Origin: a virus
Virus record (IMG/VR): IMGVR_UViG_3300020147_000065
Location: 124,001-188,000 of that record
Strand: one strand, 5' to 3'
Length of the DNA: 64,000 bases
A program made the translations under genes and the position numbers. The notes below the pieces were generated by a model. That model was not told the origin of the DNA and did not search any database. It saw only the letters and a program-made list of their open reading frames with translations. Below are positions 33,691 to 64,000 of this stretch, in pieces. Within the stretch, counting starts at the first letter, position 1, and each line of letters opens with the position of its first letter.

Positions 33691-33826
33691 CAAAACGGGC
33701 CGGCCCCTACGGGGAGCCGGCCCTCACTTTATCTGCCCCCCCCCCACTCATAAAATTTTCCATAAATTACTTGTATTTATATTCTGTTATGTTATACTTT
33801 CAGTATCACAATTAGGAGGTAGCAAA

Positions 33827-34006
33827 ATGCTACTCGATTTATGGCCTTACTTAGTGGCCTCTTTTCCAATGACTGATATGCGGAATCGCATTGCACGTCA
33901 AATAATGAAAAGGGCGATGCAACCAAAGGGTCTGGATGGCACAGTGTGGGGAACACTGACAGACAAATATGTTGATAAGTCGTTCGATAGCAACGCCCGG
34001 TATTAA
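33827..34006 (+). CDS. Hypothetical 59-residue protein
   Basis: MLLDLWPYLVASFPMTDMRN, with AGGAGG before the ATG. A hydrophobic start is followed by a basic amphipathic helix (RNRIARQIMKRAMQPKG). Its stop lies inside a CCCGG/CCGGG hairpin that ends the unit. Confidence 0.7.
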   Translation: MLLDLWPYLVASFPMTDMRNRIARQIMKRAMQPKGLDGTVWGTLTDKYVDKSFDSNARY

Positions 34007-34099
34007 ACCGGGCGTTGTTGGTTTGTTTGCCCCCCCCACTCAAATTTAAGAAAATCTGCCCACCCCCGTGTTAATTTCTTCCCCTTTCGCTGCGCTATA

Positions 34100-34216
34100 A
34101 TGGAAGAAGGAAAGTCAGGGAACTGGGTCAAAAATAAAAATAAATTTGACTTTCATTTGTCCCCGTGGTCTGCTATACTAATGTTAATTCTTTTAGGAGT
34201 GAGTTTATCACCATGA
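34100..34216 (+). repeat. GGAAGAAGG element, copy 1 (possible 38-residue peptide)
   Basis: The first of four similar ~40-bp elements (others at 35184, 35781, 41531). Here it opens a frame MEEGKSGNWVKNKNKFDFHL that continues to a stop overlapping the next gene's ATG. It sits between a C-tract junction and a CCCCGTGG promoter. Either a short leader peptide or an RNA/DNA element. Confidence 0.5.
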
Positions 34217-34713
34217 ACACCACGTTAGTTAATCAGGCCGCCGCATTGAGCGCGAAACTCCGCAAAATCACCGGACGTTGCGGCGAAAACCATTCAGCCG
34301 ACTATTTGAATCGCGCAGAACGCGCATATTCCCGCGCGTATGACCGCGCTATGCGTCGCGCGATGGCTGCGATGCCTTCGGCTGTTCCCGGTGTTATTCC
34401 CGTTGAGGCTATCAAATTGATGTCAGCAGCGACCTATTCTGTGCCCGTCGAATCGGTTAAAATCCTCAAAATTGAGCAGATTGCAGCCGACCATCCCGAC
34501 CGCGTTATTGACCGCGCGTGGAGTGTGCGACTGTTGGGCGAACGCACGGTTCGGGCGCGTGAACTTGATGGCGAAGATTACAGCCATGTTATCACGCATA
34601 CCCACCTCGTAGAAACCCGTTATGGTCACGGTGTGCCAGAGTCCGGCAACGGTGCTTGGGGTTCGTTGTTCGGCATCACCGACAAAGGCGAATATCGCCT
34701 ATGGTGTGACTAA
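34213..34713 (+). CDS. Hypothetical 166-residue protein
   Basis: MNTTLVNQAAALSAKLRKIT, with TAGGAG upstream. The promoter has CCCCGTGG followed by TATACT. The N-terminal half is a basic helix bundle (YLNRAERAYSRAYDRAMRRAM). The C-terminal half has HVITHTHLVETRYGHG and ends GITDKGEYRLWCD. Not recognised. Confidence 0.75.
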   Translation: MNTTLVNQAAALSAKLRKITGRCGENHSADYLNRAERAYSRAYDRAMRRAMAAMPSAVPGVIPVEAIKLMSAATYSVPVESVKILKIEQIAADHPDRVIDRAWSVRLLGERTVRARELDGEDYSHVITHTHLVETRYGHGVPESGNGAWGSLFGITDKGEYRLWCD

Positions 34714-34817
34714 CACCACGCCTCACACCGCAAGGTGTGAGGTGCCCCCCCCCCACGCTTGCCATTTTATTTTGTTTGTGTCATACTATAGTTATCTTGA
34801 TTGATGAGGTTAGTGAA

Positions 34818-35120
34818 ATGTATAAGACGGTCACTCTCGCAAAGTTACGCCGTTTGGTCGCAAACCACGGGGCAGACAGTGTTCACATTAAATTCGATGA
34901 ATATGATGGGCCGGCCCGTTTGTCCATCCGAATCGGCACGACGATTTATCACACGCAATGGGTGGACTTATCAGTTCTTTGCGGTTCATTGCTCCGGTGG
35001 CGTAATTTGCGGGGTGTTAGTTGTTTCGCTAACAAAGGTCGCAATGTGGGACTCATTGGGCCTAAGAACTGGAAACTTCAAAAGGGACAGAAAAAAGAGT
35101 TCCACCCGGCTTATTTCTAA
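34818..35120 (+). CDS. Hypothetical 100-residue basic protein
   Basis: MYKTVTLAKLRRLVANHGAD, with GATGAGG before the ATG. Alpha/beta with a basic C-terminus (KNWKLQKGQKKEFHPAYF). The coding sequence contains a CCACGGGG copy. The stop lies in the stem AAGCCGGG/CCCGGCTT. Confidence 0.7.
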   Translation: MYKTVTLAKLRRLVANHGADSVHIKFDEYDGPARLSIRIGTTIYHTQWVDLSVLCGSLLRWRNLRGVSCFANKGRNVGLIGPKNWKLQKGQKKEFHPAYF

Positions 35121-35183
35121 GCCGGGTTTGCCCCCCCCACCACGATTCAAACGCCAAAAATCGTGGTGGGGCAAGTGATCGCA

Positions 35184-35255
35184 ATGGAAGAAGGAAAGCC
35201 AGGAAATCAGGTCAAAAATAAATTCCAAAATCACTTGTGTTTACTAAACTTTTGA
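35184..35255 (+). repeat. GGAAGAAGG element, copy 2
   Basis: The frame MEEGKPGNQVKNKFQNHLCL ends after 23 residues, before the promoter of the 35292 gene. It matches copy 1 at 10 of the first 13 codons, with synonymous or conservative changes at several positions. Confidence 0.5.
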
Positions 35256-35291
35256 GTTACACTAACACTATCTTGTTTGGAGGTTTTGGTT

Positions 35292-35603
35292 ATGTCTCTA
35301 TTTGACCACTCGATTAAAGGGCACCTGAATTGGAAAGAACAGCGCGTTGCTGTGGAATGGGCTTATCAGCGCCGCAAACAGAAAGTTCTTTTCCGTTCTC
35401 TTGAAGGCGAAGCTATCGCGTTAACAGGCGTGATATGTTTCAAAGAAACCAAGTCAGTAACCGTTGGCGGTGGTTATATGACTTTGAAGGGTCGTGACGG
35501 CCTCGCATTACAAAATGCACCAAAGGTCGAACAATTTCCAGAGGCTCTCGTTGCGCTTGCTCGCAAAGTAATCGAACGATGGCCGGAAGAAGAAAGCGAG
35601 TGA
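35292..35603 (+). CDS. Soluble member of gene pair family (copy 3)
   Basis: 103 residues, MSLFDHSIKGHLNWKEQRVA, with TGGAGG upstream. It aligns with copy 2 over its length: VLFRSLEGEAIALTGVICFK against VVLRSIEGEAGECFGVIYLR, then VGGGYMTLKGRDG. The stop overlaps the next gene by GTGA. Confidence 0.8.
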   Translation: MSLFDHSIKGHLNWKEQRVAVEWAYQRRKQKVLFRSLEGEAIALTGVICFKETKSVTVGGGYMTLKGRDGLALQNAPKVEQFPEALVALARKVIERWPEEESE

Positions 35604-35710
35604 TTTTACTTGCATTTGTTCTACTGGTAACAGCGCCCTTATTTATTGGCAAGCCTTATATTTTTTATGGTATCGTTATTCTGGTTGGTGTGCTTACCCT
35701 TTTAGGGTAG
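35600..35710 (+). CDS. Tiny two-helix membrane protein (copy 3)
   Basis: 36 residues from GTG: VILLAFVLLVTAPLFIGKP then YIFYGIVILVGVLTLLG. Same length and APxF turn as copy 2. Confidence 0.7.
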   Translation: MILLAFVLLVTAPLFIGKPYIFYGIVILVGVLTLLG

Positions 35711-35880
35711 GCACATCGCCAGCGATGTGCCCCCCCCCTTGCATCACGATTGTAAAACTTCCTACTGGGGATCAAAATATGTGGAAGAAGGAAGGTCAGA
35801 AAATCAGGTCAAGAATAAAAAGATTTTTCACTTTGCCCCCCCCCCTTGTTGCCATCTTTATCATATGTAATAATTTAAGT

Positions 35881-36216
35881 ATGGAATTTAGCAACACGGA
35901 CATCACCAAAGTTTTTGAGAACGTAAACGCTCCGGCTGTAAAGGCTCAGATTTCAACTCTTGGCGGTGCCGGTCGCCATAGTCTAATGATTACTATGTCA
36001 TTGGACAAGCGCGAGGATTGGGTTGCTGGCATCCTTCACAATTCGCGCTATATGTTCTTTAGTTTATCACAGGGCGGTAAACTCGAACAATTCAACCGCG
36101 CCCACACAATCGAGCCAAAGTTTCGCACTCGCACCGTTGGCAGTGTAGACGATGCCATTGCAAAGATTAACACATACATCGAAAAAGTTAAGGACGCCCC
36201 CGCTGCTGTCAAGTAG
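35881..36216 (+). CDS. Hypothetical 111-residue protein, leaderless
   Basis: MEFSNTDITKVFENVNAPAV. The -10 AATAAT ends 6 nt before the ATG, with TTGTTG 17 bp upstream directly after a C-tract. C-terminal helix KINTYIEKVKDAPAAVK; the hairpin CCCCGCTgctgtcaAGTAGCGGGG holds the stop. Not recognised. Confidence 0.75.
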   Translation: MEFSNTDITKVFENVNAPAVKAQISTLGGAGRHSLMITMSLDKREDWVAGILHNSRYMFFSLSQGGKLEQFNRAHTIEPKFRTRTVGSVDDAIAKINTYIEKVKDAPAAVK

Positions 36217-36270
36217 CGGGGACGTGCCCCCCCCCCCTGCATCTTATTACAAATTTGATATACTCTGAAT

Positions 36271-36405
36271 ATGAAAATTCTTGTGGTGCATCATGTTGAA
36301 GAATCTTTTTGTGGTGACGAATGGCAACAAATGGATAATGCACAAAGTGTTGTCGCAAAATTTTACGTCATATCAACCGCACAAGTTATGATAAGATTAT
36401 TCTGA
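36271..36405 (+). CDS. 5' part of a split gene (possible -1 frameshift product)
   Basis: MKILVVHHVEESFCGDEWQQ, 44 codons to a stop. TATACT lies 6 nt before the ATG. At 36357-36363 the heptamer A-AAA-TTT is in the correct phase for -1 slippage. Slipping there continues as LRHINRTSYDKIILTTM into the next frame, which is the natural continuation of the protein. Confidence 0.6.
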   Translation: MKILVVHHVEESFCGDEWQQMDNAQSVVAKFYVISTAQVMIRLF

Positions 36406-36410
36406 CCACT

Positions 36411-36713
36411 ATGGAGGCATCGAATAGTGGTTATCATGAACTCGATAAATATATCAGCGTGGTAGAAAATTGGTGGTTTGGTTATTCACCTGATGAAGTA
36501 TCTGAATATGATACCGAACCAATGGTTTATAATGAAGACCATGTTTATGAAGGTCACGAATGGCTGCGAGTTTATGACTGGATTAAAGAACTAAAAGGTC
36601 ATCAAATTTCCGTTTGCGGTGGTTTTCGTAATGAGTGTTTCTTAGGTCTTACCTCTACACTTGACCATTTAGGTATCAAATATAAAACAATTGAGCAGTG
36701 CGTTTATGGTTGA
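36411..36713 (+). CDS. 3' part of the split gene
   Basis: 100 residues from MEASNSGYHELDKYISVVEN. Its frame is open upstream through SYDKIILTTM, so this ATG need not be the true start and no ribosome site precedes it. Acidic and Tyr/Trp-rich, with YEGHEWLRVYDWIKELKGHQ. A fused product with the 36271 frame would be about 147 residues. Confidence 0.65.
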   Translation: MEASNSGYHELDKYISVVENWWFGYSPDEVSEYDTEPMVYNEDHVYEGHEWLRVYDWIKELKGHQISVCGGFRNECFLGLTSTLDHLGIKYKTIEQCVYG

Positions 36714-36771
36714 TAACCATAAACGTGCCCCCCCCCCTTGTCGTGTCCCCGTGGTTTGTTAAAATAGAAGT

Positions 36772-37065
36772 ATGAATTTCTTACGCAACCCTCATTTTGT
36801 GGATTTTATCATTGATTTCACACAATGCAAAGCAGACGAAAGCGAACGTTTTGCACTTGCTAAGGCTCAGGGTGTAGCCTTCGCAGACTGGCGAATGACC
36901 ACCGACGCAGCCGACTTCGTTGTTGATTATTTCAACGCTTTACCCAAACAGGAACAGTTTCGGACGTTGGTTCGTGCCCGTCTCGATATGCGTCAACAGG
37001 CCGACGCATTAAACGCAAGCGTTGCAGAGTTTACTCAGGTGATAAACGCAGCCCGGTCTATGTAG
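36772..37065 (+). CDS. Hypothetical 97-residue protein, leaderless
   Basis: MNFLRNPHFVDFIIDFTQCK. TAAAAT ends 6 nt before the ATG, and the spacer holds CCCCGTGG. All-helical, with SERFALAKAQGVAFADW and ARLDMRQQADALNASV. The stop TAG lies in the stem CCCGGTCTA/TAGACCGGG. Confidence 0.75.
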   Translation: MNFLRNPHFVDFIIDFTQCKADESERFALAKAQGVAFADWRMTTDAADFVVDYFNALPKQEQFRTLVRARLDMRQQADALNASVAEFTQVINAARSM

Positions 37066-37142
37066 ACCGGGCTTGCCCCCCCGCTTACAATCATTCTTTT
37101 TCGTGTTATACTTGAATCAATTCAAGAGTTACGGAGAAAGCA

Positions 37143-37361
37143 ATGCGACACGCAAACCACGTAGTTTTACCAACGATCATCACTGAGACAGGAGATTATT
37201 TGACGCGCGGCGGTGAGGTCGTTAACATCACCTCGATTGTCCCTTACTCGGCTTATGGTGCTACCGGCACCTATCATTGTAATATCATAGACCATTGGGA
37301 TGTTTCAGGTCGGCTTTATCCCAACATGATAAGTGATAATGATATTGTCGAACGGGTATAA
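37143..37361 (+). CDS. Hypothetical 72-residue protein
   Basis: MRHANHVVLPTIITETGDYL, with CGGAG before the ATG and a ~30-nt leader. Beta-rich (GATGTYHCNIIDHWDVSGRL). Not recognised. Confidence 0.7.
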   Translation: MRHANHVVLPTIITETGDYLTRGGEVVNITSIVPYSAYGATGTYHCNIIDHWDVSGRLYPNMISDNDIVERV

Positions 37362-37468
37362 TGGACAGGGAACGAAAGTTCCCTGTCTGCCCCCCCCCCG
37401 CCGGCACCCCTTGCATTCTCCCCGTGGTTTGCTATACTCTCAGTATCTTTAGTTAGAGAGGTTACGAC

Positions 37469-37780
37469 ATGAACAACGATGTGAAGATTCGCGGAATCGA
37501 GACGCCCGAACTGTGCCTGTGCTGCGGCTGCCAGGCCGAAATCGAAATCACCACGCCTGATGGTGTGGAGAAAATGTGCTTTTCTGAGGCGTTGCGTCAG
37601 TATCCTGACCATATGGCCGACTATGGCGAATCCATGTTTCGTGCTATGCAGGATGAGGCCGAAGTATTGGATGCGCAGTTGCAAGAGTTCCGCGCTGAGG
37701 CGTGGCACGAAGAAAATACACCACCGGCATGGTTTATGGATGAGCCGAACCCTTATATGGGTATGGGCTGCGATTTTTAA
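37469..37780 (+). CDS. Acidic protein with Cys cluster
   Basis: 103 residues, MNNDVKIRGIETPELCLCCG. The CLCCGCQ cluster and a later EKMCF could bind metal. The rest is acidic helix (YGESMFRAMQDEAEVLDAQL). GAGAGG precedes the ATG. The promoter TTGCAT...TATACT has CCCCGTGG in its spacer. Confidence 0.72.
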   Translation: MNNDVKIRGIETPELCLCCGCQAEIEITTPDGVEKMCFSEALRQYPDHMADYGESMFRAMQDEAEVLDAQLQEFRAEAWHEENTPPAWFMDEPNPYMGMGCDF

Positions 37781-37883
37781 AACCTGCGCACTTTCCTGTT
37801 GTTTGGGAAAGTGCTGCCCCCCCCCTTGCTCCCATCTTTCTTTTTGTTATACTTGTAGTATCTTAGTTAGAGAGGTTAGAGCA

Positions 37884-40003: not shown

Positions 40004-40013
40004 GGATAAAATC

Positions 40014-43139: not shown

Positions 43140-43823
43140 ATGGACAAAAAGATTGATGACGTTTTAAAGTTCGACCCGATTGACACCGCAGAAAAAATGA
43201 TGGGCGGCGATAGAAGTGATGCTTCTATGTTTCTGGGCCTCGCTCTGGCAATGGAGAACAACGAACAAAAAGAGCGCGTTTTAAATGCGTCAGGCGATAC
43301 GCATTTCAGCACCACGCTTGACCAATATATTTCTATTGTTCAGGGCATCGGTTTCGAGCAGGTTTTGTGCATCCCATTTGTCGGTGAAAAGTGGGGAAAA
43401 GAAACTGCCCCACAAGAGAAATTTTTCGTTTTCTTCGATAAGTCGCGCAGCATTTTGCTTACTTTCGACACCTATAACAGCGGCAAAGTCAACGGTGGCA
43501 AGTTTCTCTATAACATCAAGCCGAACAACGAAAAAAGTTTCTATAATGTTATTTCTTCCGGTGGCTACACGAAAGACAGTGACGGCAATTATGTTTGGGT
43601 TGGTGACCATGACTGCCGCGAAGCCATCAAACACAAGATTGCACGTTTAGAAGAAAACGGGCAATTCTTAACCAAATGGTTAGAGCGCCCTTTTCTCTGG
43701 TTGCTTCATTATATGGACACCAAAGACAAGAATTATGATTATCGCGCTATCAACGCGGAACGAATTGCAATGCTGCCGGATTACGTGCAAGAAGCAATCA
43801 CACCGGCTCAGTCTTCGGACTGA
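43140..43823 (+). CDS. Hypothetical 227-residue protein, leaderless
   Basis: MDKKIDDVLKFDPIDTAEKM. TAAAAT ends 6 nt before the ATG. One of the larger accessory proteins. A beta-rich centre (VFFDKSRSILLTFDTYNSGK, DGNYVWVGDHDCREAIKHKI) is followed by helices. The stop sits in GGCTCAGTC/GACTGAGCC. Not recognised. Confidence 0.78.
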   Translation: MDKKIDDVLKFDPIDTAEKMMGGDRSDASMFLGLALAMENNEQKERVLNASGDTHFSTTLDQYISIVQGIGFEQVLCIPFVGEKWGKETAPQEKFFVFFDKSRSILLTFDTYNSGKVNGGKFLYNIKPNNEKSFYNVISSGGYTKDSDGNYVWVGDHDCREAIKHKIARLEENGQFLTKWLERPFLWLLHYMDTKDKNYDYRAINAERIAMLPDYVQEAITPAQSSD

Positions 43824-43873
43824 GCCTTGCCCCCCCCCTTGCTCTATGAAGTATTTATGGTAGAATATATTAC

Positions 43874-44263
43874 ATGACGACAGCCAAAGTTAATCTAATC
43901 GGACTCATAACCTTTTCCGTTCGTATATCGTGGCAAGGCGACACACCAATAGAAACTTCACGTTTTCTTGATGAAGTAGAGAGTGCTATTCGGCGCTTCA
44001 TCATCACAAAAAGGTTATATTTAACCGATGATTTAGCCTTGCGTGTCTCAAGCCGTCCGTTTGAAGGATGCACGGCTCTGCGTCGGATACATGATGTGGC
44101 TGATATTTATGATGCTTTTGGTTATGTAGCTTATGAAGTAAATATGGACAATATAAGCAAACCTATTCCACTATGCAAACCATCATTGCGTAAAATATTT
44201 GGTCGCTTACCAAATAACATCTATTTCGATATTTATAAGCGTTCGGCTGTCACCTCAGAGTGA
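43874..44263 (+). CDS. FG-LP-Y family protein (member 1), leaderless
   Basis: 129 residues, MTTAKVNLIGLITFSVRISW. TAGAAT ends 7 nt before the ATG. The C-terminus LRKIFGRLPNNIYFDIYK matches the ends of the products at 45979 (VFGTIPENIYVAV) and 46939 (LFGYLPRRLYLKF), and partly 48767. Confidence 0.75.
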   Translation: MTTAKVNLIGLITFSVRISWQGDTPIETSRFLDEVESAIRRFIITKRLYLTDDLALRVSSRPFEGCTALRRIHDVADIYDAFGYVAYEVNMDNISKPIPLCKPSLRKIFGRLPNNIYFDIYKRSAVTSE

Positions 44264-50436: not shown

Positions 50437-50469
50437 TAGATGCCCCCCCCCCTTGCTAATCAAATGACA

Positions 50470-50525: not shown

Positions 50526-51122
50526 TCATAAACTCAAGTCAAGTTTATCGTTAGCAGCCACACAATAGAATTGTGTGCCGTCAATGTTAGCAGTTCGATT
50601 AAAATGCCAATGACCAAATACCCATATTGCCGGACGGTGTATCTGTAACATGGTCATTAAAGCCAACGTGGTTTGCGTAGGCTTTACCGGCCCGTTTATC
50701 AGGCGAGGCATATTCATATGCTCGATTATACCAAACGGGGCATCGTGACTGATTACAATATCCGGCTTGGTGGCCTCATAGAGAGTAACAGCATTGGTTA
50801 AATCTTCCATGCTTAATTGCTCATCTTTCCACCAACTTATACCCTCTCTACGACGGTATTGATCTATTGACCATGCACCGGATAGAAAGAATACGCCGTG
50901 CTTGTAACCATAATCACCCAGATAAAGAGGATGGGCGCGGCACTCTTCGGGAGAATCATGATTACCACGTATGAAACCATCTATACCAGTAAAGACGGTT
51001 TCTCGATTGAAGTTACGAAAACCTAATCCCAAATCTCCCAAATGTAATGTCAAGTCTGCTTTTTCGGGATACCAAAAGCCAACCCGTTCTGCGTGAGAAT
51101 CACCAAGAAATCTATAAATCAT
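50526..51122 (-). CDS. Calcineurin-like metallophosphoesterase
   Basis: 198 residues with the ordered metal motifs GDSHAE (6-11), LHLGDLGLG (27-35), GNHDSPE (53-59), SHDAP (about 124) and GHWHFN (about 170). Such phage enzymes cleave phosphodiesters, for example nucleotide signals or RNA ends; the substrate is unknown. It overlaps the upstream small membrane gene by ATGA. It is one of only two minus-strand units right of 31 kb. Confidence 0.92.
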   Translation of the reverse strand: MIYRFLGDSHAERVGFWYPEKADLTLHLGDLGLGFRNFNRETVFTGIDGFIRGNHDSPEECRAHPLYLGDYGYKHGVFFLSGAWSIDQYRRREGISWWKDEQLSMEDLTNAVTLYEATKPDIVISHDAPFGIIEHMNMPRLINGPVKPTQTTLALMTMLQIHRPAIWVFGHWHFNRTANIDGTQFYCVAANDKLDLSL

Positions 51123-51342: not shown

Positions 51343-51391
51343 GGTCTGCCCCCCCCTTGCATTTAGATACGATTTAGAGTATCCTTTAATC

Positions 51392-53331: not shown

Positions 53332-53525
53332 TGTTTGAAAAACTCATCGCCTTCGTTCTCGGTCTGGTGTGCTTAACATGCGCTTTTACAGTTATGACTA
53401 TGTTTGTTAGCATAATCTGTAATCTCGGTTGGGATTGGCAACACGTTATGCGAACTTGGTTCTGGATTTTTATCGTTCTCGAAGTTCTGTTTTGGATTGG
53501 TGGCGGCCTTAGTCAATTCGACTAA
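53331..53525 (+). CDS. Two-helix membrane protein
   Basis: 64 residues, MFEKLIAFVLGLVCLTCAFT and a second helix TWFWIFIVLEVLFWIGGGL. Coupled to the basic protein upstream by TGATG. Confidence 0.74.
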   Translation: MFEKLIAFVLGLVCLTCAFTVMTMFVSIICNLGWDWQHVMRTWFWIFIVLEVLFWIGGGLSQFD

Positions 53526-53541
53526 GGTTTGCCCCCCCACC

Positions 53542-53781: not shown

Positions 53782-53867
53782 GATATTAGTATATAGCCAA
53801 CCACGGGGGTTAGTCAATGCCCCCCCCCCCATTGCACACTCTAAACAATAGCGGTAAAATATATTCC

Positions 53868-54290
53868 ATGAGCAAAACAAAAGTAACCCCGAACAGCGTA
53901 GCATTCAGCGCGTTGCAGGAAGTTGTCAAAGTTGGTAACACGAAACTGAAAGTTCTTTTCGTTGCCGAACGCGGCGTCCACGGTGCCGAAACCTACTGGA
54001 ACGACGAAATGCGCGGCAATGTCGGCAAAGAACTGACCGTGAGAGATTCCGACGCGAGCAGCAACGAATTTCAGCTTTCCGACGATTTCTGGTATCCTGC
54101 AATCTCCTTGTTTGCTGAACCCAAACAGCCGGTAGAAGTGTCGCTGCCTGATTACACGGCGACGGTGTATCCTACCCATCTCCAAGTTGGTTATCAGGAA
54201 ATCACCAAAGAAATGGTTCTGGCAATCGTCAAGGGTGGACTGGATACGGGCTTCCTCTCCACATCAGATTTGGAGGGTCTGAATAAATAA
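53868..54290 (+). CDS. Eight-copy family, member 1, leaderless
   Basis: 140 residues, MSKTKVTPNSVAFSALQEVV. Family pattern: an AF helix, a strand with KVLFVAERGVHGAETYW, a D-x-S...FWYPAISL strand, then LPDYTATVYPTHLQVGYQEI and a C-terminal helix TKEMVLAIVKGGLDTGFLS. Member 1 is the most divergent in its C-terminal strand (VGYQ instead of VGCQ). TAAAAT ends 7 nt before the ATG. Confidence 0.82.
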   Translation: MSKTKVTPNSVAFSALQEVVKVGNTKLKVLFVAERGVHGAETYWNDEMRGNVGKELTVRDSDASSNEFQLSDDFWYPAISLFAEPKQPVEVSLPDYTATVYPTHLQVGYQEITKEMVLAIVKGGLDTGFLSTSDLEGLNK

Positions 54291-54375
54291 GCCCCGGCTC
54301 CCTTCGGGGAGCTTTGCCCCCCCTTGCGCACAGCTCTAATCTTCTGTATAATTATTAGTAATAAGGAGGCCAACG

Positions 54376-54645
54376 ATGCCTAAATCAATGTTTCGTCCAT
54401 CGGATGTAATGGACAACGCGCATTTCAATGACCACACTAAGGTCTTGACTGTGACGTTTCAGAGTGGTTCGGTTTACGAGTATGAGAATGTGCCTGAGCG
54501 CGTTTTCAATCGTTTAAACGCCGCTCCTTCTAAGGGACAGTTCTTTAATCAGAACATCCGTAATAAATACGCATTTAAGTGTGTGTTTAAACCCGCTAAG
54601 ACAACTACAGCGCCGCAGGTTCAGCCCGTGGCTGTCACTGTCTAA
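54376..54645 (+). CDS. KTSC-domain protein
   Basis: 89 residues, MPKSMFRPSDVMDNAHFNDH. The KTSC pattern is clear: LTVTFQSGSVYEYENVPERV, then a helix and SKGQFFNQNIRNKYAFK. KTSC domains are small nucleic-acid-associated domains found with Lys-tRNA synthetases and in phages. AAGGAGG precedes the ATG. It interrupts the eight-copy array between members 1 and 2. Confidence 0.85.
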   Translation: MPKSMFRPSDVMDNAHFNDHTKVLTVTFQSGSVYEYENVPERVFNRLNAAPSKGQFFNQNIRNKYAFKCVFKPAKTTTAPQVQPVAVTV

Positions 54646-54742
54646 TGTTCCTCCTTACCGGGAAACGGAGGCTTCCGGGCCTCCGTTTCTTCGGTCTGCC
54701 CCCCCCTTGTCACAAGTAAATTAAAACGATATAATCTATTAC

Positions 54743-55159
54743 ATGAGTGAAACAAACAACGTGAACATTGCTGAACTGAGCCTGAACCAAATTGCATTCT
54801 TAAAGCTCGGCCTCAAAGAAGGCGACACCGTAAAGGTTGTTGCTAAAGTGCCAGAAGGCACACACGGTTCTGATATTTACTGGGAAACGAGTATGACCCG
54901 TAAAATCGGTAAAACCCAACGAGTAGTAGGTGCGCGGAACCATAGCCGAATCGAACTCGAAGATGGGTATTACTACCCTGCCCTCGCGCTGGAAAAAGTG
55001 AAAGTTGTCAAGGAAATTCGGCTCCCTGACTACACCGCTTTAGTCAGCGAAGATGGTGTATCCGTGGGTTGCCAAAACCTCACCAAAGAAATGGTGTTGG
55101 GTATCGTAAAAGCCGCAGTGGAAACGAACTTCATTTCACAGGAGGACTTGGAGTTCTAA
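54743..55159 (+). CDS. Eight-copy family, member 2, leaderless
   Basis: 138 residues, MSETNNVNIAELSLNQIAFL. Shares VPEGTHGSDIYWETSM, YYYPALALEKV, LPDYTALVSEDGVSVGCQNL and TKEMVLGIVKAAVETNF. TATAAT ends 7 nt before the ATG. Confidence 0.82.
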   Translation: MSETNNVNIAELSLNQIAFLKLGLKEGDTVKVVAKVPEGTHGSDIYWETSMTRKIGKTQRVVGARNHSRIELEDGYYYPALALEKVKVVKEIRLPDYTALVSEDGVSVGCQNLTKEMVLGIVKAAVETNFISQEDLEF

Positions 55160-55233
55160 GCCGGGAGCCGTCGAAAGACGGCGACCTGCCCCCCCCCTTG
55201 TCACTACTCAAGAATAACAGTAAAATATATTCC

Positions 55234-55653
55234 ATGAGTGATAAAGTAAAGACAATGAATGATGTGGCTTTCGAGTTTCTCAATGAGAAATTCAAAGTTG
55301 GCGACAAAGTGCGAGTCACCATGCGGGTTGACTCTGGTGTGCAGGGTAATCGAATTGACTGGCTTGAGGGAATGGAAGAGGCTCTCAATTCGGGACTTCA
55401 CACTATTCTGGATACCAACGAGTCGTATGGTGCGTTCCGACTGAGTTGTGGTTACTGGTTCCCGGCGTTGGCAATCAGCTCTGATGTTGGTAAAGTCACT
55501 GTCAAACTGCCCGACTACACAGCCGAAATCACCAAAGAAAAAGTCAACGTAGGTTGTCAAGTTCTGACAAAAGAGATGATTCTCAGTATCGTAAAGGCCG
55601 CAGTGGACACCGGCTTTTTAAATGAGGAGGATATTGCCTCACTTAAAGGTTAA
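55234..55653 (+). CDS. Eight-copy family, member 3, leaderless
   Basis: 139 residues, MSDKVKTMNDVAFEFLNEKF. Family blocks: VDSGVQGNRIDWLEGM, GYWFPALAISS, LPDYTAEITKEKVNVGCQVL, TKEMILSIVKAAVDTGFL. TAAAAT ends 7 nt before the ATG. Confidence 0.82.
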   Translation: MSDKVKTMNDVAFEFLNEKFKVGDKVRVTMRVDSGVQGNRIDWLEGMEEALNSGLHTILDTNESYGAFRLSCGYWFPALAISSDVGKVTVKLPDYTAEITKEKVNVGCQVLTKEMILSIVKAAVDTGFLNEEDIASLKG

Positions 55654-55732
55654 GCGGCGGGGAGCTGCCTTCAGGCAGCGACCTCTTGCCCCCCCCTTGC
55701 ACTAACCAACTAAAAACGATAGAATATATTCC

Positions 55733-56158
55733 ATGAGTGATACAACAGCAAAGACGGTTAATGATGCAGCGTTTGAGATTCTCAGCGCAACGGTCAAAGA
55801 AGGCAGCAAGGTTCGCGTAATTCTTCGTATCCCAAAAGGTATGCATGGAAGCCGCATCTCATGGGTTGACTCGATGGACGGAAACGTGGGCGTCGGTATC
55901 CACACTGTAACCGATGTAAGCCCTCGCTACGGTGCTTTCGAGTTGGACAACGAAAAGTGGTATCCTGCGGTTGCTCTTTCGGCGGACGCGGAAACCGTTC
56001 GCGTCGCGCTCCCTGACTACGAAGCAGAAATTACCAAAGATGGTATCGTAGTCGCGGGGCAGAACCTCACCAAAGAGATGGTTCTCGGCATCGTGCAGGG
56101 TGCGCTCGACACCGGATTCCTTGATAAAGGAGATGTAGCCACTATTAAGACTTCCTAA
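55733..56158 (+). CDS. Eight-copy family, member 4, leaderless
   Basis: 141 residues, MSDTTAKTVNDAAFEILSAT. Blocks: IPKGMHGSRISWVDSM, EKWYPAVALSA, LPDYEAEITKDGIVVAGQNL (the usual GC is AG), TKEMVLGIVQGALDTGFL. TAGAAT ends 7 nt before the ATG. Confidence 0.82.
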   Translation: MSDTTAKTVNDAAFEILSATVKEGSKVRVILRIPKGMHGSRISWVDSMDGNVGVGIHTVTDVSPRYGAFELDNEKWYPAVALSADAETVRVALPDYEAEITKDGIVVAGQNLTKEMVLGIVQGALDTGFLDKGDVATIKTS

Positions 56159-56238
56159 GCAACGGGGAGCCATCCACGGGTGGCGACCTTTTGCCCCCCC
56201 CCTTGCACCAAAATAAGATAAGCGGTATAATTTATTAC

Positions 56239-56676
56239 ATGAGCGATACACAAACAACCCCCGAACTGACCGTGAACCAAGCCGCATTTAATGTTTTAAA
56301 TGCGAAAGTGACCGAAGGCGACAAGATTCGCGTCGTCCTCAAAGTGCCTATTACCGTGCATGGTAGTGATGTGAACTGGGTCGAAGAGATGGACAACACC
56401 ATCAACAAAACGCTTCGCGTTCGCCGCGTTGACGCAAGCAATGGTTCTTTCTATCTCAGCAACGGCTACTGGTATCCTGCCGTGGCACTCTCCACCGAAG
56501 TAGCAAAAATCACCGTGCCGCTGCCGGATTACACGGCGGAAATCACCAAAGAACAGGTCAACGTCGGCTGCCAGATTTTGACCAAAGAAATGATTCTCGG
56601 CATCGTGCAAGGCGCGTTGGATGTAGGGTTTCTGAGCGAAGAGGATGTGAACCGCCTCGACACCAGAGAAGTATAA
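56239..56676 (+). CDS. Eight-copy family, member 5, leaderless
   Basis: 145 residues, MSDTQTTPELTVNQAAFNVL. Blocks: VPITVHGSDVNWVEEM, GYWYPAVALST, LPDYTAEITKEQVNVGCQIL, TKEMILGIVQGALDVGFL. TATAAT ends 7 nt before the ATG. Confidence 0.82.
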   Translation: MSDTQTTPELTVNQAAFNVLNAKVTEGDKIRVVLKVPITVHGSDVNWVEEMDNTINKTLRVRRVDASNGSFYLSNGYWYPAVALSTEVAKITVPLPDYTAEITKEQVNVGCQILTKEMILGIVQGALDVGFLSEEDVNRLDTREV

Positions 56677-56750
56677 CCGGGTGGACTCTTCGGAGTCCAC
56701 CCTGCCCCCCCCCCTTGCGCTGATAGAATTTAAACAGTATAATTTATTCC

Positions 56751-57167
56751 ATGAGTGAAACAAGAAAGACGGTTAATGACGCGGCGTTTGAAATCCTCAA
56801 CGCACAGTTGAACATTGGTGATAGAGTTCGTATTGTCGCCAAAATTGATGAGGGTGTCCACGGCAGCAAGACTGTTTGGACATCTCGCATGAATGATAGT
56901 GTGGGTCAGTTTATGACTATTCGCGGTGTTGAACCTGAGTATGGTGCTTTTCAGTTGGATAACTATTACTGGTATCCTGCCGTGGCACTCGATACTCAGG
57001 TGCATAAAGTGACGGTTAATCTGCCGGATTATTGCGCTGAAATCACCAAAGAAGGGGTGAACGTGGGTTGTCAGAACCTCACCAAAGAAATGATTCTGCA
57101 AATCGTGCAGGGCGCGTTAGACGTGGGTTTTCTCGATGCCGAGGACATCGAAAGTCTGAAAGTATAA
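56751..57167 (+). CDS. Eight-copy family, member 6, leaderless
   Basis: 138 residues, MSETRKTVNDAAFEILNAQL. Blocks: IDEGVHGSKTVWTSRM, YYWYPAVALDT, LPDYCAEITKEGVNVGCQNL, TKEMILQIVQGALDVGFL. Closest to member 5 in its second half. TATAAT ends 7 nt before the ATG. Confidence 0.82.
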   Translation: MSETRKTVNDAAFEILNAQLNIGDRVRIVAKIDEGVHGSKTVWTSRMNDSVGQFMTIRGVEPEYGAFQLDNYYWYPAVALDTQVHKVTVNLPDYCAEITKEGVNVGCQNLTKEMILQIVQGALDVGFLDAEDIESLKV

Positions 57168-57244
57168 GCGGCGGGGAGCTATCGAAAGATAGCGACCTTG
57201 CCCCCCCCTTGGCAACACTCAATATAAACAGTAAAATATAAGAC

Positions 57245-57643
57245 ATGAACATGAACCAAGCAGCATTCGAGACGTTGAAGGAAACGCGCGGCATCGGTGA
57301 CAAAGTGAAGGTTGTCCTGCAAGTGGACAAAGGTGTGCATGGAAACCTCTTCCGTTGGGATTCCGGTATGACCGAACAAATCGGAAAAGTCTTGACAATC
57401 AAAGAGTTCGATTCTTCGGACAACACCATCCTGCTGTCAGATAGCCGTTATTATCCCGCACTCGCTTTGATGAGCGACAACGGCCCCATTATCGTGGAAT
57501 TGCCCGATTACAAGGCAGAAATCCACGCTGACCGTGTGCAAGTTGGTTGTCAGTGCCTCACCAAACAGATGGTGTTGGACATCGTGAAGGGTGCAGTATC
57601 TGTCGGGTTTATGAGCGAATCAGATTTGGAGGGTCTGCGATAA
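57245..57643 (+). CDS. Eight-copy family, member 7, leaderless
   Basis: 132 residues, MNMNQAAFETLKETRGIGDK, the shortest member. Blocks: VDKGVHGNLFRWDSGM, RYYPALALMS, LPDYKAEIHADRVQVGCQCL, TKQMVLDIVKGAVSVGFM. TAAAAT ends 7 nt before the ATG. Confidence 0.82.
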   Translation: MNMNQAAFETLKETRGIGDKVKVVLQVDKGVHGNLFRWDSGMTEQIGKVLTIKEFDSSDNTILLSDSRYYPALALMSDNGPIIVELPDYKAEIHADRVQVGCQCLTKQMVLDIVKGAVSVGFMSESDLEGLR

Positions 57644-57720
57644 GCCCCCGCGGACTCTTCGGAGTCCGCCTTGCCCCCCCCCCTTGCACAAGGTTCAAAT
57701 TAAGGGGTATAATTTATTCC

Positions 57721-58137
57721 ATGAGCAAACAAAAGACGTTACACGACATTGCATTTGAAGAACTGGGCATCGAAGAGGGCGACTTCGCTAAAGTCGTCCT
57801 TAAAGTGGACGAAGACGTTCACGGTAACCCGCTCCGTTGGTCGCATGGTATGGAAGAAATGTTAGGTAAGACATTTCGCGTCACCAACATTGATACCAGC
57901 GACAACACAATCGAACTGAACAACGGCGAATGGTTCTCGGCTATTTCGCTCGAAAAGGCAACCGGCGAAATCAAGGTGCAATTACCGGATTACACCGCAG
58001 TCGTAACCAAAGAAGGCATGGAAGTTGGTTGCCAGAAACTCGACAAAGACAAGGTTTTGGAAATCGTTCAGGCTGCAATCACCACCGGTATGATTGACCG
58101 CGATGATGTCGAAGACCTCGACTATCACGACGACTAA
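57721..58137 (+). CDS. Eight-copy family, member 8, leaderless
   Basis: 138 residues, MSKQKTLHDIAFEELGIEEG. Blocks: VDEDVHGNPLRWSHGM, GEWFSAISLEK (YP replaced by FS), LPDYTAVVTKEGMEVGCQKL, DKDKVLEIVQAAITTGMI; acidic C-terminus. TATAAT ends 7 nt before the ATG. Confidence 0.82.
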   Translation: MSKQKTLHDIAFEELGIEEGDFAKVVLKVDEDVHGNPLRWSHGMEEMLGKTFRVTNIDTSDNTIELNNGEWFSAISLEKATGEIKVQLPDYTAVVTKEGMEVGCQKLDKDKVLEIVQAAITTGMIDRDDVEDLDYHDD

Positions 58138-59638: not shown

Positions 59639-59742
59639 TTGCTCTCTTGCTCATGCACCTCCGGCCACTACCTCAGTTTCGACTGGGGTAGTGTGCTGCC
59701 CCCCCCTTGTTCTATATTTGTTTGCTTGATATAATTATTATC

Positions 59743-60543
59743 ATGCTCTTAGAAAAAGAACAACCAAAACCAAAACCAAAGAAAAAGGTGCCGTCAAACT
59801 GTTATGAAGTTGTCATAACGGCCAACCACGGGGACGCAGACCATAGCGAAGAGAGAACAATTCGTATCCCTGACAGCCGCGAAGACCTCCTGAAGATGCT
59901 CTTGCATGACATTGATGTAACAGAGCGTTATTATTCACATGACAATTTTGAAGAATCACCGTTTATGCGGAAATGGTGTGAAGACGGCGACGACGAATCT
60001 ATCGTCAATGAATGTCGAGAAATCAGCTTTACAGATTGGCCGCGCGACATCACTGCCGACCGGCAATTCCCCTGCACATTCTATTTTGGCCCTGATGTTT
60101 ATTATTATGATGAACAGGGTGAGCGTTTACACGTTACTGTAACTTATTCTGACGAAGAAAAAGCGACAGAAGAAGAGCGGTTAAAAGGGACGTGGGAAAA
60201 AACAAAGGCCGCAGTTATCGCAGAAGAAAAGGCCGAACGTGCCAATAAATCAGAGCAGAGATGCGCGGTTTGTGGGCAAACTCAGTGGTCGTATGGTGGG
60301 CCGCGCAAAACCTGTTCGAGTTGCGGTAGTGAACTGCTTTACACTCAGCGTCTTTTTGATGCTGACGGCGAAACGATTACTGATAATGACAATCCTTATC
60401 AGTCAATCGAAGACCTCCGCACTAAAATTCTGCCGGAATTGGATAAGTTGCGCGAAAACGACAATTCTCGCTATTTTCAGCGGTGGTGGTTCATAAACCG
60501 AAAAGTTGAGAACCACGACAAAGGTTTACCGGAAGACGCTTAG
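59743..60543 (+). CDS. Zinc-ribbon protein, 266 residues, leaderless
   Basis: MLLEKEQPKPKPKKKVPSNC. TATAAT ends 7 nt before the ATG. Lys/Pro-rich N-terminus, an acidic alpha/beta domain, then a zinc ribbon CAVCGQTQWSYGG...CSSCGSELLYTQ (about residues 178-205), and a helical C-terminus. Among the largest accessory proteins. A CCACGGGG copy lies in the coding sequence. Confidence 0.78.
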   Translation: MLLEKEQPKPKPKKKVPSNCYEVVITANHGDADHSEERTIRIPDSREDLLKMLLHDIDVTERYYSHDNFEESPFMRKWCEDGDDESIVNECREISFTDWPRDITADRQFPCTFYFGPDVYYYDEQGERLHVTVTYSDEEKATEEERLKGTWEKTKAAVIAEEKAERANKSEQRCAVCGQTQWSYGGPRKTCSSCGSELLYTQRLFDADGETITDNDNPYQSIEDLRTKILPELDKLRENDNSRYFQRWWFINRKVENHDKGLPEDA

Positions 60544-60601
60544 GCGTCTTCCTTGCCCCCCCCCTTGCGAACTTTCCCCGTGGTTGGTTAAAATCTATAA
60601 C

Positions 60602-61258
60602 ATGAATCGAGATTACCCACCGGCACCATATCGTTGCGAAATTGTTTGTTCTGATGATTTGCGCGTATCTGCTGAACTTGATAAAACTACAATCAATATC
60701 AGCTATCGTTTACATCACATCGCAACATATGAAAATGGGAGCCGTGATTTTTCTTTTATTCGCCGTGTGCCTACAATCGGTGAATTTATTGATATTATCC
60801 ACGAATACCCTTGCGAGTTACGAGATGATATTAACGACGGAAAACTCGCATCTCATGTGTTAGGTGGAATCTTTATATTTGAGAATCCACAAACTAAAGA
60901 TTCTTTTGTATCATTCGCTCCCCTCAATGCCGAGACACTATATGAGCAAACAGCTAATGCTGTTCATTATGCTTCATTTGGTAGTGTAATTGAAGGTGAA
61001 GCTAATCGCGCATGGCGAGATAAGTTTGTGCAAGTAGCTGTCCTCGATCATAACGGCAACGGTTATAGCGTGTTAAGTAATAATCCTTTAGTTCCCGATG
61101 TTTGGTTTAATTCGGTTCGCCGCCGAACATTAAATCGCGCTGAGGCCGAAGAGCGTGTTCGCCGCATCTGTGCTGATAATCGTGATGTAGTTGTGCGCTG
61201 GTGCCCAACTAATAACCTGCCACCGGACTGGTGTAATGAGCGCACGAAGATTATATAA
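60602..61258 (+). CDS. Hypothetical 218-residue protein, leaderless
   Basis: MNRDYPPAPYRCEIVCSDDL. TAAAAT ends 7 nt before the ATG; spacer has CCCCGTGG. Beta-rich N-terminal half, Arg-rich helix near 180 (RRRTLNRAEAEERVRRICAD). The stop lies at the centre of an extended palindrome (CACGAAGATTATATAATCTT). Not recognised. Confidence 0.77.
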   Translation: MNRDYPPAPYRCEIVCSDDLRVSAELDKTTINISYRLHHIATYENGSRDFSFIRRVPTIGEFIDIIHEYPCELRDDINDGKLASHVLGGIFIFENPQTKDSFVSFAPLNAETLYEQTANAVHYASFGSVIEGEANRAWRDKFVQVAVLDHNGNGYSVLSNNPLVPDVWFNSVRRRTLNRAEAEERVRRICADNRDVVVRWCPTNNLPPDWCNERTKII

Positions 61259-61327
61259 TCTTCGTGTTGCCCCCCCCCTTGCACCACCTAAACAACGGAG
61301 TTAAAATCTTTAGTGAAAGGAACAGAC

Positions 61328-61528
61328 ATGGCATCTGACATCACCAAAGAACAAAAACGGGCATATCGGCAAATGGGGCGCGAAGATGGACGCGCAGGGC
61401 GTTCCGCCTCAGAGTTCCACAACACACCACACGAATTGGTTCAAGCGTATAACTCCGGTCATAAATCCGGTAAACGCACACTGGAAAACGAAAAGGCACA
61501 GCGCGACTATGAATTAAGCAAGTGGTAA
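61328..61528 (+). CDS. Hypothetical 66-residue protein
   Basis: MASDITKEQKRAYRQMGRED. AAAGGAA precedes this ATG; a GTG at 61313, 5 nt after the -10 TAAAAT, would be a leaderless alternative. Charged helical protein with GREDGRAGRSASEFHNTPHE. Not recognised. Confidence 0.7.
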   Translation: MASDITKEQKRAYRQMGREDGRAGRSASEFHNTPHELVQAYNSGHKSGKRTLENEKAQRDYELSKW

Positions 61529-61534
61529 CGCCTT

Positions 61535-61561
61535 GACAGCACCTCTTAAACCTGTTATAAT
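61535..61561 (+). promoter_or_regulatory. Consensus promoter without C-tract
   Basis: TTGACA, 17 bp, TATAAT, then 6 nt to the ATG of the 61568 gene. It has the full consensus -35 and no C-tract, in contrast to the weak TTGC or TTGT -35 elements next to C-tracts. Confidence 0.82.
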
Positions 61562-61567
61562 AAGAGT

Positions 61568-61690
61568 ATGATATTCTTATGGGTAGGGGTGCTTTTCTTG
61601 GCTCCATTGTTTTGCATGGGGAATAAGACTGCCCTCGGTGTAATTTACGGTGCATTTGCCTTGTGGTTATTGTATAATGGAGTATGCTAA
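61568..61690 (+). CDS. Tiny two-helix membrane protein (copy 5), leaderless
   Basis: 40 residues: MIFLWVGVLFLAPLFCMGNK then TALGVIYGAFALWLLYNGVC. Same LxxAPLF turn as copies 1-3. A CCACGGGG motif overlaps the end of the gene. Confidence 0.72.
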   Translation: MIFLWVGVLFLAPLFCMGNKTALGVIYGAFALWLLYNGVC

Positions 61691-61749
61691 CCACGGGGCA
61701 GGTGCCCCCCCCCCTTGATTAATGTAAAACAATTGATTAAAATAAAAGT

Positions 61750-62187
61750 ATGATTTCAGAAAAAGCGCGAGTGCTGAATTTACTTTTAGAACGTAATGAG
61801 GTATCAAAAATTGACTTTGAATTAGGTGGAGAAATCATTATAACTCTTTCCCCTAAGCTTACAAAGTTACAAGAACACAAAAAGATGCGAGAAAAGAAAT
61901 ATTCTGAATCAGAAATTGGTGCATCGGTGGACGAGCGTGTTCGAGAAGTTTTATTGAAAGATAAACCAATGACTATACCTGAGATAACAGCAGCAGTAGG
62001 CTGCTGTTATCAGAGGGCAAAAACCGCAATAGATGCGGCAACAATACACGGTGTTATTAATATCGTTGAATGTCGCACTGGTGAATTAAGAGGAAAACTC
62101 CCTCATCTTCATCAAATTACCGAAGACGGAAAGAAAAAATTAAACGAGGAAAGGTGGTGGATTTACCTCAAGAAACCTAAAAATTAG
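61750..62187 (+). CDS. Winged-helix-like protein, leaderless
   Basis: 145 residues, MISEKARVLNLLLERNEVSK. TAAAAT ends 6 nt before the ATG. Residues about 70-140 (KPMTIPEITAAVGCCYQRAK through a wing ending GKKKLNEERWWIYLKKP) fit a winged helix DNA-binding domain. A candidate regulator of the cassette array. The stop lies in AAGAAACCTA/TAGGTTTCTT. Confidence 0.75.
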   Translation: MISEKARVLNLLLERNEVSKIDFELGGEIIITLSPKLTKLQEHKKMREKKYSESEIGASVDERVREVLLKDKPMTIPEITAAVGCCYQRAKTAIDAATIHGVINIVECRTGELRGKLPHLHQITEDGKKKLNEERWWIYLKKPKN

Positions 62188-62240
62188 GTTTCTTGCCCCC
62201 CCCCTTGCACGACCATAATAAAAGAGGTAGAATAATTACT

Positions 62241-62504
62241 ATGAATCCATTCAACACACGACTGTTCAGCGCAACCCGCGAGAAAATCAACGAATTTCTC
62301 TATGCTCGGCTATCGAATCCCGAAAATCCGAATAACGGCGAAGAAACACATCGTTACCACGGAAGCACCTTAAAACAGCGCAAGCGTCGCCTGTCTCACA
62401 CAAATCCGGCATCGCATCACTATGCGAACTACACGAAGCGCAAGCGTCGCCAGAAACACGCGCGTAAGATGTTGGCAAAGCAACGCGCGGCGGCTGTTGC
62501 ATAA
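62241..62504 (+). CDS. Highly basic 87-residue protein, leaderless
   Basis: MNPFNTRLFSATREKINEFL. TAGAAT ends 7 nt before the ATG. Two similar basic clusters, LKQRKRRLSH and YTKRKRRQKHARKML, encoded by a repeated GCGCAAGCGTCGCC. Probably binds DNA or RNA. Confidence 0.75.
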   Translation: MNPFNTRLFSATREKINEFLYARLSNPENPNNGEETHRYHGSTLKQRKRRLSHTNPASHHYANYTKRKRRQKHARKMLAKQRAAAVA

Positions 62505-62576
62505 GTTCGCTCTCCGCTCCGGCGGAGAGCTTGCCCCCCCCTTGCATCCTTATAACTTCTGAGTTATATTTTAAGT

Positions 62577-63383
62577 ATGCAATTCAGAATCCTTGACCCT
62601 CAAACGGACGGCGGCGGAGTCCTTCACATAACAGCGACCGGCACAGAAGAAATAAAGGCCGTGTTTGGTGTTTTTCATTGGCGGGACGAATCAACGGAAA
62701 CCCTTAAAGCGCGTGTCACCGCTTTAGAATCCGGCCAATATAGCCTGATTTGCAACGATAAACGGAAATGGTATCGCAATGAAGTCGAATTGTCTGCCGA
62801 TTGGGTTAGCCCATATATCGAAGAGTTGCAAAAACGAACGGGCTACAGTGGCGAACTTCCCGAACTCGATTTAATTGATTGTGTAAAGCGTATAACGCAC
62901 ACACATTTAATCGAATCTGTAAAACTCACAGACGGTAAATTGTCTGCGGTGATTTATGTAAAATCAGAAGATTACGCCGGTAAACCGGCTGTTGACCGTT
63001 CGCGCTGGTATTCGCGGGAATGTCTCGGAAACGACTTCGGGGCAACGCCTGTGCATAGTGAATATATCGAAACGAGCGCCGGAAACTACCGTAAAAATCC
63101 AGCGTGGGGACACTACCACAAACCGCGCCCCGCTTTAGCTAACGCGGCATTTTTCAACAAATTGTTTAAGTGGTGGCGGGATAACCACGCAACCGACTTA
63201 CAAAAAGACTTATTAGAACGCGGCCTAAAATATGGCCTCTATTCTAATAACTGGTTAATGACACAGGGGCACCAACAATGCGTGGATTTAGGGCACGGCG
63301 GTTTCCGAATCACACCGAACGGCAACGGGCCTGACAGCTATAAATTTATGAGTTGGGAACAGTTCCGCGCGGTGGCTACGTAG
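62577..63383 (+). CDS. Hypothetical 268-residue protein, leaderless
   Basis: MQFRILDPQTDGGGVLHITA. TATATT ends 6 nt before the ATG. Alpha/beta N-terminal part, aromatic C-terminal part (FNKLFKWWRDNHATDLQKDL, YKFMSWEQFRAV). The stop lies in the perfect palindrome GCGGTGGCTA/TAGCCACCGC. Not recognised. Confidence 0.78.
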   Translation: MQFRILDPQTDGGGVLHITATGTEEIKAVFGVFHWRDESTETLKARVTALESGQYSLICNDKRKWYRNEVELSADWVSPYIEELQKRTGYSGELPELDLIDCVKRITHTHLIESVKLTDGKLSAVIYVKSEDYAGKPAVDRSRWYSRECLGNDFGATPVHSEYIETSAGNYRKNPAWGHYHKPRPALANAAFFNKLFKWWRDNHATDLQKDLLERGLKYGLYSNNWLMTQGHQQCVDLGHGGFRITPNGNGPDSYKFMSWEQFRAVAT

Positions 63384-63437
63384 CCACCGCTTGCCCCCCC
63401 CTTGCAGAGATTAAACTAATTTGCGATAATATATTAC

Positions 63438-64000
63438 ATGAAATGGATTAAAGAGAAGTGGAAAGCCTTCCTCGCCCTGCTTAACGGTCAAGTTCACCGT
63501 TACCCCAATGCCGACGCTCCCGCCAACATGGAAAAGAGCGACACCTGCCCTGCCGCAACTCTTGGTTGTAATTCGCGCGACTATGTAAGCGGCAAATCTT
63601 ATCCGCCGCGTGGTAGTGTGGCCCGTTCTGCTGCCGAAAAGAAACCTCTACCACCTGAGCGCAAATTAAGTCAGACACCATACAGCGGTTATGTGGTTGA
63701 TTCCGCGCCTCTCTCAATACCTTTCGTGCCTGAACCGACCTTTCAGCCATATCTTGACCCCATTGGCACCGAAAAGCTGTTGGAGGAAATTGATAAGATA
63801 ATCTATCAGCCGACTGATTCAACTGCTGATGAAATGCGGGATAGTTATTCGCCACCCACGGTGGAAATACCGACTTATTCGGCTCCCGAACCTGTTTCGA
63901 CACCAACTTTTGAATCCAGAAGCAGCGATTTTGGAGGCGGCGAATCCGGTGGAGGCGGAGCATCTGCTACATGGGACAGTTCACCTTCGGATAGTGGATC
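63438..64000 (+). CDS. Hypothetical Pro/Ser-rich protein, partial
   Basis: Starts MKWIKEKWKAFLALLNGQVH; GATAAT ends 7 nt before the ATG. An amphipathic N-terminal helix is followed by low-complexity Pro/Ser/Thr sequence and a Gly-rich stretch (FGGGESGGGGASATWDSS) running off the window. The TPM-like low-complexity C-terminus suggests a surface or membrane-associated protein; function unknown. Confidence 0.75.
   Translation, partial: MKWIKEKWKAFLALLNGQVHRYPNADAPANMEKSDTCPAATLGCNSRDYVSGKSYPPRGSVARSAAEKKPLPPERKLSQTPYSGYVVDSAPLSIPFVPEPTFQPYLDPIGTEKLLEEIDKIIYQPTDSTADEMRDSYSPPTVEIPTYSAPEPVSTPTFESRSSDFGGGESGGGGASATWDSSPSDSG

Follow-up and report, generated by a model that had tools for sequence, protein, structure and literature searches.

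A hairpin, C-tract and promoter fused at the small-gene junctions of a jumbo phage

The DNA analyzed here (the window, 64,000 nt) covers positions 124001-188000 of a 221,108-bp virus record. A 186-bp end repeat, in which the start of the record recurs close to its end, makes it probable that the record is a complete jumbo-phage genome assembled as a circle. In this 221-kb phage one compact type of junction separates about 90 genes, most of them tiny. Coordinates below are those of the window unless the record is named; the block of junctions and a type example are as follows.

33736-63401, plus strand: block of 70 C7-11 tracts (tract count), at nearly every gene junction
43805-43826, plus strand: type example, hairpin GGCTCAGTC-TTCG-GACTGAGCC, with the upstream gene's stop codon (43821-43823) within the 3′ arm
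43830-43838, plus strand: type example, C9 tract preceded by TG
43839-43866, plus strand: type example, -35 TTGCTC abutting the tract, 16-bp spacer and -10 TAGAAT; the predicted leaderless ATG is at 43874

Plus-strand runs of at least seven C number 70 between 33730 and 63440, against about 0.3 expected under a Markov model with the tracts collapsed, and runs of at least seven G are absent there. In the whole record 98 such C-tracts had enough flank to be counted. Their lengths are 7-11 with a mode of 9-10, rather than the 6-10 given in an earlier note on this DNA; C6 runs are almost absent, C5 runs are few, and A, T or G runs of comparable kind do not occur. TG stands immediately 5′ of the tract in 95 of the 98, and a -35 TTG abuts its 3′ end in 76. 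Among these 76 the spacer from -35 to -10 is 17 bp in 59, 16 bp in 12 and 18 bp in four, and in 55 the -10 is followed after 6-7 nt by an ATG, so that the predicted start site falls on the start codon (leaderless). The tract thereby lies at about -36 to -46 relative to the start, close to the -37 to -46 noted before. What is conserved is the TG, the tract, the TTG and the -10 with a few bases beyond it; the base following TTG (C or T) is weakly conserved, and upstream of the TG nothing is. This leaves a shared core of about 14 bp at both ends of each unit, and the median unit, tract to tract, is about 390 bp long. Tracts are densest at 155-193 kb of the record and sparser at 0-8 kb and 195-221 kb, while the part from 20 to 124 kb has none, so the plan belongs to the small-gene block and is not genome-wide as the earlier note had it. 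An assembly or library artefact was ruled out, as the tracts are tied to the base to strand, stop codon, hairpin and -35.

Stem scores upstream of the tracts average 21.2, compared with 10.8 in dinucleotide shuffles, and together with the tract count this upholds the fused hairpin, C-tract and -35 that had been described. The score exceeds the cut-off at 71% of tract sites and at 3% of random positions. A hairpin at almost every junction, as previously claimed, is thus true of most sites, but stems are weak or absent at some (for example 40713, 42703, 51349, 52116 and 53820). The stem usually ends 0-3 nt 5′ of the tract. The stop codon is found, in most units, at one of two distances ahead of the next tract: 2-13 nt, where it is inside or adjoins the hairpin's 3′ arm, or 26-35 nt, with the hairpin intervening. 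Hairpin sequences differ and are unrelated between junctions, and no known RNA family was found in the window. UNCG or GNRA loops make up 20 of 36 tetraloops (p=9e-18). G-U wobbles in the stems outnumber A-C mismatches 58 to 16, an asymmetry to be expected of a transcript that enters the tract from the upstream gene. Four paralogous hairpins have compensatory double changes at three stem pairs, with all pairs intact. Judged by their loops, G-U bias and compensatory changes, the hairpins are genuine and act as RNA.

These are not canonical intrinsic terminators (GC hairpin and U-tract), since TG-C7-11 follows most of the hairpins. Within the tract block a C-tract stands behind 31 hairpins and a T-tract behind four, versus none and 21 in the 20-124 kb part of the record (p=9e-12). 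A few tracts elsewhere stand after a hairpin and U-tract.

The -35 differs between the promoters with and without a tract. Tract promoters have TTGC or TTGT, and tract-free leaderless promoters of the same genome have TTGAC (TTGAC in 2 of 44 leaderless promoters with a tract versus 14 of 19 without, p=3e-8), in agreement with the proposal that the tract compensates for a weak -35. In a set selected for TATAAT, AC follows TTG in 31 of 42 tract-free promoters and rarely in the 25 that have a tract (p=8e-9). A consensus -10 is slightly rarer in tract promoters (25 of 69 versus 29 of 54, p=0.07). Consensus -35 promoters were said to lack the tract; those at 27106 and 61533 do, but the minus-strand TTGACT near 53810 adjoins the shared tract (G11) of a divergent pair. 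In layout and in this -35 dichotomy, the tract promoters match the class II activator type, a putative site adjoining a degenerate -35 in an otherwise sigma70-like promoter. They do not match phase-variable homopolymer promoters, as the tract lies upstream of the -35 and spacers are constant at 16-18 bp.

Several junctions depart from the common form and separate the roles of its parts.

51349-51356, plus strand: divergent junction, tract and promoter without a hairpin; the upstream gene is on the minus strand
53820-53830, plus strand: divergent junction, C11 common to a plus-strand promoter (TTGCAC) and a minus-strand promoter (TTGACT), with no strong hairpin
53505-53538, plus strand: convergent junction, hairpin and TG-C7 (53532-53538) without a promoter, adjoining a minus-strand gene end (53542)
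50443-50452, plus strand: convergent junction, TG-C10 without a usable promoter, before the minus-strand gene 50526-51122
30513-30520, minus strand: reversed tract, TG-C8 (G8 on the plus strand), directly 3′ of a plus-strand gene's hairpin
30840-30850, minus strand: reversed tract, TG-C11, directly 3′ of a plus-strand gene's hairpin
30200-33520, plus strand: short-tract promoters, C2-4 and TTGCAY or TTGTAT, SD-led and apart from hairpins (sites 30200, 30555, 30939, 31616, 32065, 33207 and 33508)

A third convergent tract without a promoter is at position 195770 of the record. In the zone from 30 to 33.7 kb a hairpin is followed by a C- or reversed (G) tract, and a C2-4 promoter comes tens of bases later. 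By sequence this zone looks like an unfused form of the junction parts, an evolutionary direction that we infer. Judging by its predicted C2-4 TTGCAY promoters, Cs ahead of the -35 are a promoter feature of wider occurrence in this genome. The earlier note does not bring out these convergent and divergent junctions, the leaderless starts, the signs that the hairpins act as RNA, or the replacement of the U-tract.

Taken as a whole, the junctions are best explained as compressed terminator-promoter punctuation that makes each small gene its own, mostly leaderless, monocistronic unit; we give this reading a probability of about 0.5. The sequence shows an RNA hairpin at or over the upstream gene's stop codon, with TG-C7-11 directly 3′ of it; the tract abuts the -35 TTG, the ACA half of the -35 having been lost in tract promoters; and the -10 is placed so that the expected start site is the ATG, promoters and leaderless starts being predictions. 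That the junction combines a terminator with a promoter is the part we consider probable. The strongest evidence is the link of tract to -35 together with the loss of ACA, a combination that speaks for TG-C7-11-TTG being recognized as DNA. In 76 of 98 cases the tract touches the -35 directly and in one set orientation, and both divergent junctions have tract and promoter without a hairpin. TG-C7-11-TTG would then be read as double-stranded DNA, an extended -35 region. Its position of about -36 to -46 is that of class II activators; a phage or host factor bound there would most likely recruit RNA polymerase, replacing the missing -35 contacts. Such an activator-read extension of the -35 is close to an even bet, falling a little short of it. 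Class II activators usually require fixed phasing; despite this the tract length varies by 4 bp, which counts against the activator reading.

Less certainly, an occupied tract would pause the incoming polymerase while the hairpin forms, in which case the tract would also replace the U-tract of a normal terminator. This roadblock step would account for the tracts that stand without a promoter where genes converge and for the two that lie reversed behind hairpins. Those tracts suggest a second role for the tract, and a bound roadblock protein would be the simplest common reader; even so, we hold the roadblock step doubtful. Combining the two roles, a dedicated phage or captured host protein might read TG-C7-11 DNA at about 90 junctions, activating the leaderless promoter in place of the -35 and stopping the upstream polymerase so that the hairpin releases it. 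We regard this fuller version as slightly less likely still. Counting against a terminator role, a C-tract forms a strong rC:dG hybrid and so is ill suited to take the place of the U-tract in an ordinary intrinsic terminator. Ribosomes translating the upstream gene would also melt the hairpin where it overlaps the stop codon, as it often does. Protection of mRNA 3′ ends may be all that the hairpin provides.

Candidates for the reader were also considered. No candidate C-tract-binding protein was found among 62 block proteins scanned against Pfam. The Rpb2-type beta subunit of a phage multisubunit RNA polymerase was not found, and as for the ECF-like sigma factor of the phage, the TATAAT-like -10 argues against an ECF promoter. 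Reading through an intramolecular G-quadruplex is unlikely with one G-run per site.

Alternatively, the hairpin and C-tract could be an unusual terminator and nothing more, either a U-less terminator or a 3′-end protection device, that the promoter abuts merely from tight packing. Behind the hairpins of the block the C-tract does stand in for the U-tract, the convergent gene ends have tracts without promoters, and the distance from stem to tract end fits a tail of hybrid length. Against it, the spacing to TTG is exactly zero and the -35 differs between tract and tract-free promoters; the divergent junctions have tract and promoter without any hairpin, and the two reversed tracts give G in the RNA, not C. 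We consider this account unlikely.

An equally unlikely account treats the units as recombination cassettes, with TG-C7-11-TTG and the promoter core serving as homology for gain, loss, duplication or swap of small genes and their use in transcription being secondary. The same core of about 14 bp does begin and end every unit, and one part of the block may bear on this account.

53868-58137, plus strand: tandem array of eight paralogous genes of about 140 aa, 35-56% identical, one per tract-to-tract unit; the four hairpins with compensatory changes belong to units of this array
54324-54698, plus strand: SD-led unit of 89 aa, not related to the paralogs, that separates paralog 1 from paralog 2 and has a tract on each side

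At best an SH3-like fold can be suggested for the paralogs, with no confident match. The array and the unit inserted tract to tract are compatible, if weakly, with whole-unit duplication and insertion, which would not imply recombination within the tracts. Each paralogous unit retains its own similar promoter, so promoters have not been swapped within the array. Recombination, moreover, has no need of the strict link of tract to -35 or of the missing ACA, and seven contigs of up to 329 kb that encode a relative of one cassette gene are free of tracts. Nor were tracts found in twelve records with related terminases, and in the loci and records checked there was nothing comparable near relatives of the terminase, capsid, paralog family or that one cassette gene. 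The architecture was not found in a second virus in a scan of viral and prokaryote collections that gave single matches per contig and in which very close records possibly fell outside. Precedents for shuffling do exist. Cluster O mycobacteriophages have more than 30 17-bp dyad repeats, and recombination between them deleted segments (PMC4351075). Like the tracts, these are short repeats, many of them in intergenic gaps, in a small-gene region; unlike them, they are palindromic, resemble binding sites, mostly do not stand at promoters and have no C-tract or fused hairpin. PeSLs are likewise given in PMC4503421 as mediating shuffling in T4-like phages.

Least probable is a mutational by-product, in which short C runs before the -35 grew by replication slippage and were tolerated or used as contingency (phase-variation) loci: poly-C is prone to slippage, one tract counts C11 where it stands at an end of the circular record but C10 in its end-repeat copy, and C2-4 precursors lie nearby, but the length range is narrow (7-11, with C6 and C5 scarce), the TG boundary is invariant, no other base forms such runs, and the tract lies outside both spacer and coding frame, so that a change in length would not switch genes as it usually does at such loci.

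Read as terminator-promoter punctuation, the junction has relatives among described systems, which amends the earlier statement that no phage system with this layout was known. The nearest are the PeSLs of T4-like phages, composite promoter-terminators (Arbiol 2010; Comeau 2014; cited in PMC4503421) for which a role in expression and modular shuffling has been proposed. There too a stem-loop and a promoter, of the early sigma70 type, are fused at many small-gene junctions of a plastic region. Here, in contrast, the hairpin is upstream of the -35 and set off from it by TG-C7-11, and the genes are mostly leaderless. In the stretches of RB49 inspected, some hairpins lie inside or overlap the promoter (in the spacer or around the -10), a trait that is taken as a PeSL feature from the RB49 sequence and is not seen here. 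The RB49 sites, from a scan that required TTGAC, have TTGAC -35s, unlike the TTGC or TTGT of the tract promoters; RB49 has no tract of at least seven C in 60 kb, and its leaders carry SD-like sequence. The phage is also not T4-like: its terminase matches only distant phages, none of them T4-like, its capsid protein matches phrog_3990 and the capsids of mycobacteriophage Papyrus and other actinophages (a distant relation), and its tape-measure protein matches mostly actinophages. These capsid and tape-measure matches, with the leaderless starts, are hints of an actinobacterial host. On the strength of its layout, the junction would work like a PeSL composite promoter-terminator and yet is not a member of that class, as geometry and content differ.

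Two mycobacteriophage systems share other aspects. The SAS/ESAS repeats of cluster K (PMC3203893), a fixed 13-bp sequence at translation starts with conserved inverted repeats, are likewise a short motif, partly with upstream inverted repeats, before many small non-structural genes and limited to that part of the genome; here, instead, a C-run at the -35 forms the motif, and one hairpin's sequence is unrelated to the next. The stoperators of L5-type phages (PMC9283540) are 13-bp asymmetric repressor sites. A DNA-bound phage protein that acts at promoters and halts elongation in short intergenic gaps is the logic proposed for the tract, although stoperators have neither hairpin nor C-tract.

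If the proposed reading is true, this phage has a class of promoter in which a homopolymer run replaces half of the -35 box and also the U-tract of a terminator. With nearly 100 repeats in one genome beside tract-free controls, how core promoter and terminator signals can be replaced would be directly testable, and the junction would be a compact, composable one for expressing many small leaderless genes.

The asymmetric 13-bp motif CCCCGTGGNTNGC recurs genome-wide on both strands, with 69 CCCCGTGG in the whole record vs about 3 expected. Its copies lie inside genes and also in the -35/-10 interval of about 10 promoters; examples from the window are listed here by strand.

27136, 28982, 31629, 36747, 37420, plus strand: 13-bp motif
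42724, 44292, 53147, 58187, 60576, plus strand: 13-bp motif, further examples
30097, 51332, 53801, 61691, minus strand: 13-bp motif

The motif may be an operator- or stoperator-like site, or else a partition or packaging site. A second repeat, TGGAAGAAGGAAAGTCAGGAAATCAGGTCAAAAATAAA, is noncoding, spans about 40-50 bp with copies 79-89% identical, and is positioned in leaders or gaps.

34101, 35185, 35782, 41532, plus strand: copies of the noncoding repeat

One of the C-tracts that mark small-gene junctions is present in two lengths, C11 at the record start (61) and C10 in the repeat of that start near the record end (220983), a difference that reflects either population length variation or an assembly error.

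Several coding features were recorded in the window and in the record pieces outside it (L010, L011 and L012).

53868-58137, plus strand: eight paralogs in tandem, each about 140 aa long
22183-24930, minus strand: large terminase, 915 aa
L010:15515-16033 (genome 35515-36033), minus strand: phage-encoded ECF-like sigma factor, 172 aa
L011:12959-14530, L012:9082-10494: phage genes with PAS and SpoIIE phosphatase domains and BCS1-like AAA ATPase

A Pfam scan of four of the tandem paralogs gave no match; the structure model is confident (pLDDT 89), and the predicted fold resembles an SH3-like barrel, a likeness only. The terminase is interrupted by an intein-like insert whose first residue is a Cys in the P-loop and which contains a LAGLIDADG domain (residues 294-368), and the sigma factor has regions 2 and 4. 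Thirty-six tRNA genes were predicted at genome 195-217 kb (L016 and L017); the ARAGORN calls among them include tRNA-Pyl (CUA) and tRNA-SeC (UCA), which possibly act as stop-codon suppressors.
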